Below, one piece after another: positions 8,539 through 55,442 of a DNA stretch of 64,000 bases. Each line of letters starts with the position of its first letter. Position 1 is the stretch's first letter. The notes under the pieces were generated by a model that was not told where the DNA came from, made no database searches, and worked only from the letters and a program-made list of their open reading frames with translations. Source of the DNA: Parachryseolinea silvisoli. Lineage in GTDB: Bacteria; Bacteroidota; Bacteroidia; Cytophagales; Cyclobacteriaceae. Location: the NCBI RefSeq assembly GCF_021190955.1, contig NZ_JAIOAO010000001.1, positions 1,054,001-1,118,000 on the forward strand, read 5' to 3'. The translations under genes were made by a program, and so were the position numbers.

Positions 8539-8569
8539 AAAGGCGGTCTCTATTCGAGGCCGCCTTTTT
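8539..8569. terminator. Bidirectional terminator between lptD and lysS
   Basis: AAGGCGGTCTC and GAGGCCGCCTT form an 11-bp stem with one G-U pair around a TATTC loop. It is flanked by A-rich and T-rich tracts and so can serve both converging genes. Confidence 0.85.
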
Positions 8570-8588
8570 CATGATGGTCAATACGGTA

Positions 8589-10319
8589 TTATTTCAACCA
8601 ACCTTCCACTTCTTCCATGGTAGGGTTGATGATCTCAAGCTTCATCTTTTTGCGTGTACCGCATACGTCGTTGAAGAGCTTGGAGGCTTTCATCTCTTTC
8701 ATCTGTGCCAGCGACTGAATGCCCAGCTTTTGCAGCACCGGAATCAACTCGGGGCGCACGCCTGCATCTTCAAATTCTTTCTCATTAAAGCCTGCCGCAG
8801 GCTTTTCGGGTTTCATTTGCGGGAAGAACAGCACGTCCTGGATCGATGCCGAGTTGGTCATGATCATGGACAGGCGGTCGATACCGATGCCCAGGCCAGC
8901 CGTCGGCGGCATGCCGTATTCCAATGCGCGGAGGAAGTCTTCGTCCAGTGTCATGGCTTCCTCGTCGCCACGTTTGCCCAGTTCCAGCTGCTCTTCAAAG
9001 CGTTGGCGTTGGTCGATGGGGTCGTTCAGCTCGGAGAACGAGTTAGCAATCTCCTTGCGATTACAGATGGCTTCAAAGCGTTCCACCAGGCCGGGCTTGC
9101 TGCGATGTTTCTTTGCCAGCGGCGACATCTCTACCGGATAGTCGGTAATAAAGGTCGGTTGAATCAGGTTAGGCTCGCACTTCTCTCCAAAGATCTGGTC
9201 GATCAGCTTGCCTTTGCCCATCGTCTCGTCCATCGGCACGTTCAGCTGGCGGCAGGTGTCGCGTAGCTGTACTTCGTCCATGGCGGATATGTCAATGCCT
9301 GTAAAGTGCCTGATGGCGTCAAACATCGTGAAGCGTGTCCACGGCCGTTTGAAGTCGATGATGTTCTCGCCTACGTTCACCTGGGTGGTGCCGTGCAGGT
9401 CCAGCGCTACGCGCTCGACCATTTCTTCCACGAGGTCCATCATCCAGTTGTAGTCTTTGTAGGCTACGTACAGCTCGATCTGGGTGAATTCGGGGTTGTG
9501 GAACCGCGACATACCTTCGTTGCGGAAGTCTTTCGAGAATTCGTAGACGCCCTTGAAGCCACCGACAATGAGACGCTTGAGGTATAGCTCATTGGCAATA
9601 CGCAGGTACAGCGTCATGTCCAGCGTATTGTGGTGTGTCTTGAAAGGACGCGCCGCGGCACCGCCGTACAACGGCTGCAGAATAGGCGTTTCTACTTCCA
9701 GGTATTCTTTGGCGTTGAGGTATTGACGCATCGAGTTCACCAGCTGCGTGCGCTTGATGAAGGTATCGCGTACCCCTGGGTTTACGATCATGTCGACATA
9801 CCGCATGCGGTACCGTTGCTCGGAATCTGTGAAAGCGTCGTGGCGGTGCGTGACGCCTTGCTCGTCGACAGTCTCTTTCGTGATCGGCAACGGGCGCAGC
9901 GATTTGGTCAATACTGTAAGCGCAGTGACATGTATAGACGTTTCGCCGGTTTGGGTAACGAAGGCGTAGCCCTTCACACCGATAATGTCGCCGATGTCGA
10001 GCAGTTTTTTAAAGACAGTATTGTAAAGGGTTTTGTCTTCGGTGGGGCACAAATCGTCGCGGCGCAGGTAAAGTTGAATGCGACCGGTCTCGTCTTGCAG
10101 CTCCACAAACGAAGCATTGCCCATGACACGCGTATTCATGATACGGCCAGCGAGGGAGACGTCCTTGAAATTGTTTTCGTCCTGTTTATATTTTTCCAGG
10201 ATCTCTTTGGCAGAGGTGCTGATTTCAAAAAGATCGGCCGGATAGGGATCAATCCCTAGTTTCCTGAGCTCATCCATCTTTTGCCGGCGGATGATCTCCT
10301 GTTCGCTGAGTTGCATCAA
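8589..10319 (-). CDS. lysS: Lysyl-tRNA synthetase, class II
   Basis: Charges tRNA-Lys with lysine. The 576-residue protein has the N-terminal OB-fold anticodon-binding domain ([21 protein letters not shown] at about 54-75). The class II core follows, with motif 2 ([20 protein letters not shown]) and motif 3 ([14 protein letters not shown]). About 75 residues extend beyond the usual end ([20 protein letters not shown]), a helical addition seen in Bacteroidetes LysS. A TATTTTTG -7 box lies 13 bases upstream of the ATG. It converges on lptD over a shared terminator. Confidence 0.97.
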
Positions 10320-23911: not shown

Positions 23912-23912
23912 G

Positions 23913-23986
23913 TGGAGAATATCGGAGTCGAACCGATGACCTCTTCCATGCCATGGAAGCGCTCTAGCCAGCTGAGCTAATCCCCC
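23913..23986 (-). tRNA. tRNA-Ala (anticodon GGC)
   Basis: The minus strand folds as a complete cloverleaf. The acceptor arm is GGGGGAT with ATTCTCC (two G-U pairs), the D arm GCTC...GAGC, and the anticodon stem CTTCC/GGAAG holds loop ATGGCAT with anticodon GGC. The T loop contains GGTTCGACTCC. The discriminator is A and CCA is not encoded. It reads alanine codons GCC and GCU. It is a single tRNA gene with its own terminator. Confidence 0.95.
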
Positions 23987-24171
23987 GAAAACGATGCTTT
24001 CCGGAAAAAGCGAGCGCAAATATATTTTAATTTGGCTATCAACCAAAATGCGGGGAGAGTTTAAAAATGCGAGGAAGTTTAAAAACTGGATTTTTATATC
24101 CGCCCGAATCGACTGGCGTCAATCAAGGTAGACTCTTCTGCACCATCGGCGTAATTTAATCACCATCCGTC

Positions 24172-24239
24172 CTAGTACTTTTAGGACTAGCTTATCACTA
24201 GCATAAGTCTAGGTTAATACTAGCTTGAATCTAGCTCAT
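24172..24239 (-). repeat. Degenerate tandem array, exact 11-bp period, CTAG core
   Basis: CTAG occurs at 24187, 24198, 24209, 24220 and 24231, each exactly 11 bases apart, with one more at 24172. Read on the minus strand the units follow a pattern such as aaGCTAGnn or aaCCTAGnn, while the flanking bases differ between units. The array begins about 66 bases after the LytTR gene stop and lies about 186 bases before tRNA-Ala, both on the minus strand. A related array is at 54429-54498. Confidence 0.8.
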
Positions 24240-24304
24240 CCCCCCTTTATCCAAGCCGTTGGAAAACGTCTCCAAAACTACACGAGAAGAACCCAGGCAG
24301 GTAT

Positions 24305-25033
24305 TTACATCATCTGATTCCGGTCTGTGAAATCCTTAAACTGCTTTCGATACGAATCGCTTACGGGCAGGGTTACGTTGCCAATCTGCACTTCGCCTTT
24401 ATGTACGACGTCGATGGCATCTACTGCTACAATATAAGAATGATGGATCCGAATAAATTTATCCGTCGGTAATTGTTCCTCCAAAGTTTTCAGGCGCTGC
24501 AGCGTAACAATCTTTTGCTGGCGGGTGTGGATGGTGACGTAGTCTTTCAGTCCCTCCACATACAATATATCAGCCCAACGTACCTTGACGAGCTTGGTGC
24601 CGTCCTTCACAAATACAAAGGGTTGCTGCTCGGTTGGTTCTGTGCGAGGCGCTTGCACGGATGGCGGCGTAGTGGGTGTTAAGCGCTGGCCGGCTTTCTC
24701 GACTGCGCGTAGAAAACGTTCAAATGTGACGGGCTTAAGCAGGTAGTCCACCACGTCGAGGTCATATCCTTCCAGGGCATACTCAGAGTACGCTGTTGTG
24801 AGTACGACCAGGGGGCGTTTCTGTAATGTTCGCAGCAGCGAAATGCCGGTGATCTCGGGCATCTGAATGTCAAGGAACAACAGGTCCACCGGGTTAGAGC
24901 GTAGCACTTCGATCGCCGCCAGGGGGCTGGCACATGCTTGCAGCAACTGCAGCGAGGGCACCTTGCTTACATAGTCGGTCAGCAGGTTGCGTGCCAGGGG
25001 CTCGTCGTCGACGATCAGGCAGGTGATGCTCAT
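24305..25033 (-). CDS. LytTR-type response regulator
   Basis: Two-component regulator of 242 residues. The receiver domain has the acidic pair in IVDDEPLARNLL, the phosphoacceptor Asp55 (LLFLDIQMPEITG) and the KPV lysine (DYLLKPVTFERFLRAVEKA). The C-terminal LytTR DNA-binding domain includes FVKDGTKLVKVRWADILYVE, IHTRQQKIVTLQRLKTLEEQL and FIRIHHSYIVAVDAI. Its start overlaps the end of the kinase gene by 4 bases (ATGA), so they are translationally coupled. Targets are unknown; the receptor gene at 26344 is the nearest divergent candidate. Confidence 0.95.
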   Translation of the reverse strand: MSITCLIVDDEPLARNLLTDYVSKVPSLQLLQACASPLAAIEVLRSNPVDLLFLDIQMPEITGISLLRTLQKRPLVVLTTAYSEYALEGYDLDVVDYLLKPVTFERFLRAVEKAGQRLTPTTPPSVQAPRTEPTEQQPFVFVKDGTKLVKVRWADILYVEGLKDYVTIHTRQQKIVTLQRLKTLEEQLPTDKFIRIHHSYIVAVDAIDVVHKGEVQIGNVTLPVSDSYRKQFKDFTDRNQMM

Positions 25034-33004: not shown

Positions 33005-33946
33005 ATGTACGCAAAAATCGCCATTATCGATATGGGAACGAACACGTTCCACCTGCTTATGGCAGGGGCGGACGAACGCGGCTACCACATTCTCTCGCGC
33101 GACCGGCTGGCCGTGAAGATTGGCATGGGCGGCATTAACGAGGGCTATATTACCGAAGCCGGCATTCACCGCGCGCTGCTGGCCATGCAAAGCTTCAAGA
33201 ACATCATCTACGAAGCCGGCGTGCAAAAAGTGTATGCCTTTGGCACCAGCGCGTTGCGCAATGCCCGCAACAACCACGAGGTGGTGGCACGCATCAAAGC
33301 CCTGACAGACCTGGACGTCGACATTATTTCCGGCGACCGCGAAGCAGAGTTTATCTACTATGGTGTGAAGTCGGCACTACACCTGGAAAGCGACCGATCG
33401 CTCATAGTCGATATCGGCGGCGGCAGTGTGGAATTTATTATTGGCGACAACGATACTATCTACTGGAAAAAGAGCCTGGAGATCGGCGCGCAGCGGCTAC
33501 TGGAAAAATTTCACCAGCACGACCCGATCACGCCGGCCGATATACAAGCGCTCGATGTTTATTTCGACACGATGTTGGTGCCGTTGTTTGAAGCATTGGA
33601 GCAATACCCCACCCGTGTACTCGTCGGGTCTTCCGGCACCTTTGACACGTTAAGCGACATTTTCTGCATCCGTCACGATATTCACAAAACTGCCGAAGAG
33701 ATTGAAACGCCGTTGTCATTGGGAGGGTTCTGGGAAATCTACGACGAGCTAATTCACAAGGACCGCGCCGCACGCATGCAAATGCCCGGCATGATTGACA
33801 TGCGCGTCGACATGATTGTTGTGGCTTGTTGCTTAATTCGGTATTTGTTGGAACGTCACGACTTTAATCGCATTCGTGTATCAACGTATTCCCTGAAGGA
33901 GGGTGTGCTGGCGGCACTTATTCAGGAGATGAAGTTGCTGGCCTGA
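33005..33946 (+). CDS. Exopolyphosphatase/pppGpp phosphatase family protein
   Basis: Ppx/GppA protein with the actin-like ATPase fold, hydrolysing terminal phosphates of polyphosphate or pppGpp. The two phosphate-binding loops are clear: AIIDMGTNTFHLLMAG at the N-terminus and IVDIGGGSVEFIIGD near residue 140. FGTSALRNARN and ISGDREAEFIYYGV are also family motifs. At 313 residues it contains only the catalytic half and lacks the C-terminal HD region of longer Ppx enzymes. It converges on the DedA gene with one base between stop codons. Confidence 0.92.
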   Translation: MYAKIAIIDMGTNTFHLLMAGADERGYHILSRDRLAVKIGMGGINEGYITEAGIHRALLAMQSFKNIIYEAGVQKVYAFGTSALRNARNNHEVVARIKALTDLDVDIISGDREAEFIYYGVKSALHLESDRSLIVDIGGGSVEFIIGDNDTIYWKKSLEIGAQRLLEKFHQHDPITPADIQALDVYFDTMLVPLFEALEQYPTRVLVGSSGTFDTLSDIFCIRHDIHKTAEEIETPLSLGGFWEIYDELIHKDRAARMQMPGMIDMRVDMIVVACCLIRYLLERHDFNRIRVSTYSLKEGVLAALIQEMKLLA

Positions 33947-33947
33947 G

Positions 33948-34511
33948 TTACGGCGTATGCATCTCGCGCATCGCAAGCCGTTTTACAATATACCCCACCA
34001 ATAGTCCAAAGCACGCAAAGCCCAGCACGATATAGAGTATATTTTCCTCAAACGCGGCAGTCGTTAGATTTAGAAAACGCCCCACGAGATAGCCTGCCGT
34101 GCTGACGGTCGTAGCCCACAGCAATCCACTTACGACACTATATACTAAGAATTGCGCCGGACGAATATGACTCATGCCAATGACGACAGGGATCAACACC
34201 CGAAACCCATAAAGAAACCGATAGGTTAATAAGATCTGGAACTGGTGACGGGCAAAGAACTTCTGTACGGGACTAAAACGTGCCTGCAGTTTTGGACGGT
34301 GAGCAATGAAATATTTACCGTTCAGCCGACCGACCATGTAGTACACCCAATCGCTGATAAAAGAACCGGCGAAACCGAAGAGCATGGTGTAGGGGCCTTC
34401 AAAAAGCCCCTTGTGAATGAGGGACGAGGCCACCAGGATAGCGGTCTCACCTTCGAAAAACGTTCCGATAGTCAAGGCCAGGTATCCGTATTTGTCTAAG
34501 AATGCCTCCAC
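33948..34511 (-). CDS. DedA-family membrane protein
   Basis: Polytopic inner-membrane protein (187 residues) of the DedA/SNARE-associated family, members of which flip lipid carriers or support membrane potential. Landmarks are GTFFEGETAILVASSLIHKG, GFAGSFISDWVYYMVGRLNG, and FLYGFRVLIPVVIGMSHIRPAQF with the conserved arginine and G-x-x-P. It is last in an apparent four-gene operon with the RimB-like, rimK and AstE-like genes; only one base separates it from the AstE-like gene. Confidence 0.92.
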   Translation of the reverse strand: MEAFLDKYGYLALTIGTFFEGETAILVASSLIHKGLFEGPYTMLFGFAGSFISDWVYYMVGRLNGKYFIAHRPKLQARFSPVQKFFARHQFQILLTYRFLYGFRVLIPVVIGMSHIRPAQFLVYSVVSGLLWATTVSTAGYLVGRFLNLTTAAFEENILYIVLGFACFGLLVGYIVKRLAMREMHTP

Positions 34512-41914: not shown

Positions 41915-41938
41915 AGTTCAAAAATGCAAAAGTATTCT

Positions 41939-53677: not shown

Positions 53678-54385
53678 ATGAGAAAATTTCTACTGCTGAC
53701 GATCTGTGCGCTGCTTTCCCGGTTTGCCTCCGGTCAGAGCTTCGAGGTCGTCGCCCTGCAAGACACGTATCGCGGCCTCATCGGCGAAACGATCAAAGCC
53801 CCCATCCGTTTTAAGAACACTTCCGACAAGCCTATTACGCTGATCATCAGAAAGATCGATAGCCAGATCGGGAGCACCCAGAAAAACTTCTTCTGCGTAG
53901 GCGAAAACTGCCTGGAACAAAAAGTCGAAGACTACATCATCAAAGTTGAGCCTGGACAAACGCTTAGTAGCCTGCAGGTTGCGTTAGAAGCAGGACTCGT
54001 GCCCGGCATTAGCTCGGTGCATTACCTGGCCTTCAGCCGTTCCAACCCCAGCCATACTGTCGAATTCCGCGTCAACTTCGCCGTAGACGAAAAACCCGAG
54101 AAACAAGACCTGTATTCATCCCGTTTTATCACCATCCACGACGTTTATCCCAACCCTGTTACCGACAACAACGCCTACATCGACTACAGCATGCTTAGCG
54201 AGCAGGTAAAAGCCAAGATCATCATGCACAACCTGCTGGGCAACCCTGTTGGCCTCTATCCACTCTCCAGCGCAGAAAATCGTGTGCGGTTGCGCACCGA
54301 TGAGCTGAGCGCCGGCATCTACTTCATCACGCTATACCTTGAAAATGAGAGCGTTATGACCCGCAAGCTGATTGTGAAGAAGTAA
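53678..54385 (+). CDS. Secreted protein with type IX (type A) sorting domain
   Basis: A 235-residue protein with a signal peptide (FLLLTICALLSRFASGQ). An immunoglobulin-like region of about 120 residues contains ETIKAPIRFKNTSDKPITL and a CxxxxC pair (FFCVGENCLEQK). The C-terminal domain (about 155-235) is of the Por secretion type A kind: VYPNPVTDNNAYIDY, IIMHNLLGNPVGLYPL, TDELSAGIYFITLYLENESV, MTRKLIVKK. The protein should be exported across the outer membrane by type IX secretion. Target and function are unknown. Confidence 0.88.
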   Translation: MRKFLLLTICALLSRFASGQSFEVVALQDTYRGLIGETIKAPIRFKNTSDKPITLIIRKIDSQIGSTQKNFFCVGENCLEQKVEDYIIKVEPGQTLSSLQVALEAGLVPGISSVHYLAFSRSNPSHTVEFRVNFAVDEKPEKQDLYSSRFITIHDVYPNPVTDNNAYIDYSMLSEQVKAKIIMHNLLGNPVGLYPLSSAENRVRLRTDELSAGIYFITLYLENESVMTRKLIVKK

Positions 54386-54428
54386 TCGGATTCCCCCACC
54401 TCAACGAGGGCCATACCCATACCAAAGC

Positions 54429-54498
54429 TACCACCATACCTATGCCATACCTATACCAAAGCTATGGCTGACTTATAGTAACCTTATATCGAAGCTAT
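54429..54498 (+). repeat. Degenerate tandem array, exact 11-bp period, CTAT core
   Basis: TAT occurs at 54441, 54452, 54463, 54474, 54485 and 54496, each exactly 11 bases apart. A related unit with CTAC sits 12 bases before the first. Units read like ccAAAGCTATg or ccATACCTATg. The core agrees with the minus-strand reading of the array at 24172-24239. It begins about 43 bases after the type IX cargo gene stop and ends about 130 bases before bamD, on the same strand as both. Confidence 0.8.
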
Positions 54499-54614
54499 TA
54501 TAATGATCGCCGGACTGTCCGAAGCCGCCAAAAGCGCTTTAAAAAGAACTTTTTTATCATTTCCGACATCTTAAAACGGGCAGAAAGGCGTTTTTCTGTT
54601 CTCTTCACTTGTAT

Positions 54615-54622
54615 TATATTTG
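54615..54622 (+). promoter_or_regulatory. -7 box of the bamD promoter, adjacent to start codon
   Basis: TATATTTG is an exact TAnnTTTG match ending 7 bases before the preferred bamD ATG at 54630. It supports that start over the earlier ATG at 54609 and predicts a leaderless mRNA. Confidence 0.5.
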
Positions 54623-54629
54623 CGGGCTT

Positions 54630-55442
54630 ATGCGAAAACTATCAGTAGCTTCATACTTTCTCGTCATTCTTCTGGCCGTTGCGGCATGCAGCAAGTTCCG
54701 GAAAATTGAAAAAAGCCCGGATTGGCGGGTAAAGTACGAGGCCGCCATGGTTTATTACGATAAGAAGGAGTATTACAGGGCCTCCGTGCTGTACGAACAG
54801 ATTCTGCCCGTAGTACGGGGCTTACCCGAAGGCGAGAAAGTGCAGTTTTACCTGGCGTACTGCCAGTTCTACGACAAGCTGTACCTCCTGGCTTCGGAGC
54901 AGTTTAAAACCTTCTATGAAACCTACGGACGAAGCACCCTGGCCGAAGAAGCGCGCTACATGTATGCATATTCGCAATACGCCTCCTCGCCCGACGCAAA
55001 CCTGGATCAGACCAACTCGATCAATGCCATGGCCGCCATGCAGGAGTTTTTGAACCGGTATCCTAACAGCACCTTTCGCGAAAAGGCCGTAGAGGTAATT
55101 TTCACGACGCAAGCCAAGCTGGAAACCAAAGGCTTCAACAACGCGTACCAGTACTACCGCATGCGCAGCTATAAAGCAGCGATTGTGGCATTAAATAACT
55201 TTAAAAATAACTTTCCCGATTCGCACTACCTGGAGCAGGCTTCATTTCTGGTCGTTTCGGCCGAGTATAAGCTGGCCCAGCAAAGCATTTACTCCAAGCA
55301 GGCGGAACGGTACAAGGCTGTAGTCGATCACTACAAGGATTATATCGACAAGTATCCGGAGGGCAAATACCTGCGCGATGCTGAAAAGTTCTACACCGAC
55401 AGCCTGGAAAAACTTAGTAAATTCAAAAATACAAATACATAA
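54630..55442 (+). CDS. bamD: Outer-membrane assembly lipoprotein BamD
   Basis: Lipoprotein of the BAM complex that helps fold outer-membrane barrels. The signal (RKLSVASYFLVILLAVAACS) ends with a lipobox cysteine. TPR-like helices follow: VYYDKKEYYRASVLYEQILP, FYLAYCQFYDKLYLLASEQF, TFYETYGRSTLAEEARYMYA, NNFKNNFPDSHYLEQASFLV and DHYKDYIDKYPEGKYLRDA. From ATG 54630 it has 270 residues. The frame starts 7 codons earlier, upstream of the likely promoter. It is followed 4 bases later by rpoZ. Confidence 0.92.
   Translation: MRKLSVASYFLVILLAVAACSKFRKIEKSPDWRVKYEAAMVYYDKKEYYRASVLYEQILPVVRGLPEGEKVQFYLAYCQFYDKLYLLASEQFKTFYETYGRSTLAEEARYMYAYSQYASSPDANLDQTNSINAMAAMQEFLNRYPNSTFREKAVEVIFTTQAKLETKGFNNAYQYYRMRSYKAAIVALNNFKNNFPDSHYLEQASFLVVSAEYKLAQQSIYSKQAERYKAVVDHYKDYIDKYPEGKYLRDAEKFYTDSLEKLSKFKNTNT

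Follow-up and report, generated by a model that had tools for sequence, protein, structure and literature searches.

Between a type IX secretion cargo gene and bamD in Parachryseolinea silvisoli lies a run of 11-bp direct repeats, and the question is what kind of element it represents and how it relates to a second such array near position 24172 of the same window, i.e. the whole stretch of 64,000 nucleotides that was analysed (C5:1054001-1118000 of genome G000, which has 7,945,725 bases). The trinucleotide TAT starts at 54441, 54452, 54463, 54474, 54485 and 54496, that is, at six successive 11-bp steps, and all six positions given in a preliminary description of this DNA were found again. The extent assigned there, 54429-54498, proved too short: a model of the family, denoted R2, matches at 54412-54507 on the plus strand (E = 3 × 10−27; as a training sequence, the array matches by construction), about 96 bp or nine 11-bp steps when written in 11-bp rows. 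The same rows delimit a left block of five units with CTAT-like cores (54412-54466, plus strand; in order, CATACCCATAC, CAAAGCTACCA, CCATACCTATG, CCATACCTATA and CCAAAGCTATG). To its right, 54467-54507 (plus strand) repeats TTATA every 11 bp (TTAT/TATA-type sites), and this right block has two subtypes among R2 copies. This order, CTAT-like left units and then a TTAT/TATA-type right block, is common to R2 copies; several copies in the congener G002 carry TTATAG units where G000 reads CTATAC or CTATGG, and other copies retain CTAT.

Both neighbouring genes lie on the plus strand, and their original identification was borne out by Pfam: the product of the upstream gene (53678-54385) has a type IX secretion C-terminal sorting domain (Por_Secre_tail), and the downstream gene (54630-55442) encodes BamD/YfiO, with orthologs in 12 of 12 genomes. 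The cargo stop codon (54385) lies 26 bp before the array, and 122 bp separate the end of the array from the bamD ATG (54630); the distances claimed earlier were 40-70 and 130-190 bases. Between array and bamD, the segment 54537-54629 (plus strand) is kept in congeners with or without the array, as judged by eye.

A chance origin of the 11-bp phasing was rejected, given that period 11 stands out at each of three scales. Across the whole 64-kb window, runs of at least five 3-mers at periods 8-24 occur at period 11 only, namely CTA/TAG at 24187/24188 and TAT at 54441. In 464 kb (the window plus 400 kb; periods 7-33 scanned), three arrays with at least 30 of 44 lag matches have period 11, all outside ORF calls, and the others, one at period 24 and one at period 27, are both inside ORF calls. 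Among noncoding arrays in 1.264 Mb of G000 (at least 28 of 44), eight have period 11 and two have period 22, with at most one at every other period from 5 to 40. The spelling CTAT alone is not enriched, because three exact CTAT at 11-bp steps are as frequent in the genome as the reversed pattern (5 vs. 5); enrichment was found for the looser pattern WWSCTAK (22 vs. 3 in the control) and for four CTA at 11-bp steps (33 vs. 5 for the reversed pattern).

The second array in the window (24169-24242, minus strand) belongs to the CTAG subfamily of a family denoted R1 and is a training sequence of the R1 model. It lies 62 bp from the stop codon of a LytTR response regulator gene (24305-25033, minus strand; Pfam), the 3′ end of which faces the array, and 182 bp from the next gene beyond, tRNA-Ala (ggc; 23912-23986, minus strand). 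A 19-bp tandem repeat of 2.2 copies (24045-24085) is found beside it. The two window arrays are separate families, alike in their 11-bp layout and in containing the letters CTA. The proposal that they form one element class stands insofar as a class of dispersed 11-bp arrays exists, and fails insofar as the two arrays are not copies of one element.

Both models were built from sequence only, and training copies match by construction. At E up to 1, the R1 model (CTAG type, 9 training copies) has 18 matches in G000 and the R2 model (3 training copies, including the window array) has 12. Since two of the R2 matches hit copies already matched on the other strand, the 12 fall at 10 places; 6 of them have E below 10−9. 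A mixed-core model, R3, with 16 training copies, brings R1 to 29 matches in G000 (E up to 0.1), 26 of them free of ORF calls and 3 overlapping one. In G002, there are 11 R2 matches, and the R3 model gives 12 R1 matches at E up to 0.1, including two that overlap on opposite strands; in G001 it gives one weak R1 match (E = 0.07) and in G003-G006 none. Array-free orthologous spacers combined with a lack of other copies, an outcome named beforehand as grounds for rejection, did not occur, although the bamD array is absent from five of the six congeners. R1 and R2 are two of several 11-bp families in G000: further arrays with other cores lie at L069:2560-2820, C5:1267133, C7:155410 and C6:5298, and some of the arrays with other cores adjoin R2-like copies.

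The distribution of the two families is narrow. At E up to 0.001 and with stricter filters, R1 or R2 was detected in G000 and G002 only, of 59 genomes taken as relatives (own included); the congeners G001 and G003-G006 have neither, bar the one weak R1 match. In a sample of the phylum, four CTAG at 11-bp steps occur in 2 of 198 genomes (14 times in G000 and once in G222), compared with a single match in one of the 198 for the reversed control and none in the 198 for 10-bp steps. In a named sequence collection, at least 120 stretches contain 11-bp CTAG arrays; among the 80 matches listed, 43 are from Bacteroidota, judging by titles, and none of the 80 is inside an ORF call. The Bacteroidota among the matches listed comprise 17 arrays between co-directional genes, 10 in divergent and 6 in convergent gaps, and 10 at the edge of the stretch. 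Many of the listed arrays resemble unrelated tandem repeats, so that they show only that 11-bp CTAG arrays occur beyond G000. Outside Bacteroidota, among the matches listed, CTAG arrays are found at or next to stop codons (L181, L197, L210, L215, L219, L220 and others), and 13 of the 28 such loci with both neighbours are between convergent genes. The listed Bacteroidota loci among L152-L228, which were fetched for their CTAG arrays, hold 43 other arrays, 22 of them with period 7, 7 with period 11 and 6 with period 22. No noncoding period-11 array was found in 100-kb samples of G003, G004 and G006; the same samples contain three period-7 arrays in G006 (L281-L285) and one period-8 array in G004.

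The strongest new fact is that the cores of R1 changed while the spacers were retained. The R1 scaffold, about 73 bp long, starts near GATG and has five direct 4-bp cores at 11-bp steps, with an inverted core about 15 bp beyond them. By core, the 29 copies divide into 11 CTAG, 8 YCAG, 9 YCCG and one poor copy, and 19 of the 28 typed copies have an inverted core that fits their type exactly. In the 27 of 29 copies used for the direct cores, 123 of 135 cores have the type assigned to their copy: all five agree in 17 copies, and three or four agree in the other 10. Within copies, agreement reaches 0.83, vs. 0.29 when shuffled, which is partly due to common descent. The core columns of YCAG copies are better conserved than the spacers (p = 0.009), whereas in YCCG copies the 4-bp core is not significantly better conserved (p = 0.17), with higher conservation of the last three core bases, chosen post hoc (p = 0.002); 15 of the 17 copies entered this test, C13_39841 and C5_211918 being left out. 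In CTAG copies, the cores hold 1.67 bits and the spacers 1.09 bits (p = 5 × 10−5), a statistic biased by the search, since a CTA pattern had served to find 9 of the 11 copies.

Spacers of YCAG and YCCG copies differ by 1.83 mismatches out of 7 at the same unit index and by 2.83 at different indices (p = 0.001, the floor of 1000 permutations). Unit-specific spacers are thus common to core subfamilies, which indicates that units kept their identity through the change of the R1 cores. Had a single unit re-expanded, the spacers, which differ among units with agreeing cores, would have become alike, so that re-expansion does not account for the change. Sorting by conversion from a mixed-core ancestor may instead have occurred, since mixed-core copies exist (C6_1680241 and, in G002, L124 and L125). 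L125 is mixed although its orthologous counterpart is a uniform CTAG array, and selection on the core is therefore not constant. Two neighbouring R1 pairs in the same direction with different core types were observed at C7:672453-672605 and C5:211708-211989.

With respect to genes, 13 of the 29 R1 copies lie between genes of their own direction, 7 between convergent genes, 6 between genes of the other direction and 3 between divergent genes. Divergent gaps are avoided (3 of 29 vs. 35% expected, p = 0.003), and a gene 3′ end lies no more than 80 bp away from 16 of 29 copies (expected 27%; p = 0.001). The preliminary description had the core of both arrays point consistently to the downstream gene behind a co-directional upstream one; what survives is a moderate bias, with 20 of 29 R1 copies (two-sided p = 0.06) and 4 of 9 YCCG copies following a co-oriented gene. 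For CTAG and YCAG subfamilies together, a split made post hoc, the count is 15 of 19 (p = 0.02); in the first R1 set it was 20 of 23, weaker on the recount given above, and for R2 it is 12 of 19. We also scanned 30 flanking proteins (28 of the 40 listed neighbours and two others): 24 have Pfam families of unrelated kinds, 6 have no family, and none of the 30 is a transposase. A function shared by the neighbours of the arrays was therefore rejected.

Positions persisted where compared. G002 is about 83-88% identical to the window, and over about 215 kb of synteny each genome has arrays in three spacers, the same three of 73. The naive chance of this coincidence (2 × 10−5 for 3 of 73 spacers) does not hold, since known arrays were the reason for fetching the bamD region and contig C60; given these two, about 1 in 71 is the chance that the third spacer, at lytTR, coincides. 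This third spacer is occupied by R1 in G000 but by an array of R2 type in G002. In the orthologs L115 and L128, the array of one has exactly one 11-bp unit more than that of the other, and the orthologs L113 and L130 differ in right-block subtype. In G001 and G003-G006, i.e. 5 of 6 congeners, the bamD spacer is short and lacks the array, and the bamD-proximal sequence is kept (by eye). Separately, spacers of G002 contig C56 (L271-L273) have a palindromic repeat of the TTACGCCC...CAGGGC type, absent from G000 at those places (opposite window positions 8558-8589 and 54387-54435), and C56 has extra stretches of about 0.7 and 1 kb, partly gene-like and with clean junctions, that are missing in G000 (opposite 33933-33949 and 41931-41933).

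The arrays can be compared with several described systems. Boxes of the OmpR/PhoB type repeat head to tail every 11 bp, and a promoter usually has two to a few of them. The arrays have the same head-to-tail 11-bp repeats but differ in having at least five sites, in tens of places, next to unrelated genes and mostly not between divergent genes. Regulated-promoter placement is not what they display: 3 of 29 R1 copies are in divergent gaps and 7 of 29 in convergent ones, and the bamD array is absent in five congeners. Long simple sequence repeats of 5-11 bp, reportedly described by Mrazek and others in 2007, are like the arrays in having tandem units of that size, in being intergenic and in their patchiness among lineages; in the arrays, however, units are degenerate outside the core, their order is common to dispersed copies, and core types change across the units. 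Familiar extragenic repeats are palindromes from proteobacteria. Like REP and BIME sequences, the arrays are short, dispersed noncoding repeats, often near gene ends, with several types per genome, and are presumed protein docking places; the R1 matches, mostly free of ORF calls, are indeed dispersed and extragenic. PMC2817692 and PMC3733652 describe REPs as palindromes of 20-40 bp with a tag and a RAYT, whereas the arrays consist of direct 11-bp units, with one inverted core in R1, and no fold beats shuffled sequences. Identity with a RAYT/REP system was rejected, the lone Y1_Tnp match in the genome lying in a 3.2-kb locus without an 11-bp array. PMC4679880 presents the TAACTGA heptamer arrays as intergenic direct repeats found also in some Bacteroidetes, absent from close relatives and proposed to be protein-binding sites; the 11-bp arrays resemble them in each of these respects, with the difference that the heptamer arrays have period 7, repeat one exact heptamer and, in the main genome studied there, lie mostly just upstream of start codons. 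In a collection covering only a minor part of the subscription literature, searches for tandem or intergenic repeats of 11 bp turned up nothing on such arrays, which does not prove novelty.

Our tentative interpretation is that the arrays would work like BIMEs, as extragenic platforms on which helically phased sites receive a putative DNA-binding protein; this reading is plausible but far from assured. In its favour count the prevalence of period 11, the agreement of cores within R1 copies, the unit-specific spacers retained through the change of core, the stronger conservation of cores than of spacers in CTAG and YCAG copies, the placement of R1 copies relative to genes, the three array-bearing spacers common to both genomes, the one-unit difference between L115 and L128 and the unrelated neighbours. 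Each array would be a dispersed element with one site per 11-bp turn, all facing the same side of the helix, and such spacing would suit protein binding head to tail along that face; a putative sequence-specific protein may bind the cores and assemble side by side past gene ends. The coexistence of core families (CTAG, YCAG and YCCG in R1; CTAT-type in R2) would then imply several related proteins, or one with moved specificity. Copies would keep their chromosomal places while their interior changes, by gaining or losing a single 11-bp unit, by block exchange or by replacement; instead of being operators of neighbouring genes, the arrays may offer docking places outside genes to a protein concerned with nucleoid structure or supercoiling. 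The avoidance of divergent gaps and the tens of unrelated neighbours disfavour a plain operator and fit such a platform. The argument from cores comes from R1 and would extend to R2, so that the reading of the window array leans on R1. Several findings go against a protein that reads the cores: the lack of significance in YCCG copies, the mixed-core copies, the inexact inverted core in 9 of the 28 typed copies, the confinement of R1 and R2 to two of 59 genomes and the origin of two of the three coinciding spacers in regions already known to hold arrays. Gyrase is a loose candidate for the reader: according to PMC6379681, its phased motif is degenerate with a 10-bp period, gyrase is enriched downstream of operons and in some BIME-2, and its attraction to downstream regions is not hard-wired in sequence. 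Such sites resemble the arrays in helical phasing and in enrichment downstream of transcription units, and differ in that the gyrase motif is a degenerate 10-bp variation in G/C.

The arrays might, instead, be neutral, minisatellite-like repeats, shaped by slippage, recombination or gene conversion and mutational decay with no protein involved, which we consider rather unlikely. The difference of exactly one unit between L115 and L128, the exchanged block subtype of L113 and L130, the five congeners without the bamD array, the unrelated neighbours and the mixed-core copies are all as expected from such processes, as are the periods of the other arrays in the Bacteroidota CTAG loci, with 7 ahead of 11 and 22; PMC4679880 summarises the slippage view of 5-11 bp repeats. 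Slippage, however, renews whole units, yet the spacers differ between units, the cores agree and unit-specific spacers outlast the core change, and period 11 dominates in G000. Less probable are MITE-like non-autonomous elements, in which the phased sites would bind a transposase and the subfamilies would answer to different transposases: the copies are dispersed, measure about 75-100 bp and form subfamilies, many R1 copies end in an inverted core, and copies of different subfamilies neighbour each other (C7_672534/C7_672453 and C5_211708/C5_211918), all of which is in line with mobility, but the places are common to G000 and G002, none of the 30 neighbours is a transposase, and the single Y1 transposase match of the genome lacks an 11-bp array in its locus. 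The inverted core of R1 is at one end only.

An OmpR/PhoB-type operator controlling the next gene, here bamD, would account for the 11-bp direct repeats and their place upstream of that gene; it is very improbable, as the placement of R1 copies (3 of 29 in divergent gaps, 7 of 29 convergent) and the unrelated neighbours speak against it, and control of bamD by the array is unlikely because five congeners without the array keep the promoter-proximal sequence. We give about as little credence to an RNA-level element of the 3′ UTR, i.e. a structure, a terminator or protein-binding RNA, to which the moderate preference for gene 3′ ends and the short terminal palindrome in R1 would point. A known RNA family or a strong single-strand structure was rejected: an Rfam scan of 54200-54800 gave no match at E up to 1, and five strands folded with DNA energy parameters behaved like their shuffles (z from +0.55 to −0.87). 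Neither a sigma-70-like promoter nor an intrinsic terminator was found in 54300-54700; for promoters this result is weak, since those of Bacteroidota differ.

A bolder version of the phased-platform reading, which we regard as doubtful, is that the arrays represent a novel class in Bacteroidota, in which helically phased multi-site arrays exist in several orthogonal versions per genome, switch cores in place and keep their positions between species despite replacement of one family by another, as though the spacer required some array, each version being read by its own member of a putative filament-forming protein family, as a centromere-like or nucleoid-organising code. Sites spaced by one turn, with three interchangeable cores on one scaffold, are a clean substrate for finding a reader, because each natural core version can act as a specificity control for the others. 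If no protein binds, the arrays would show how recombination alone can keep phased sites alike; if a protein family does bind them, they would belong to a new nucleoid or genome-organising system in Bacteroidota.
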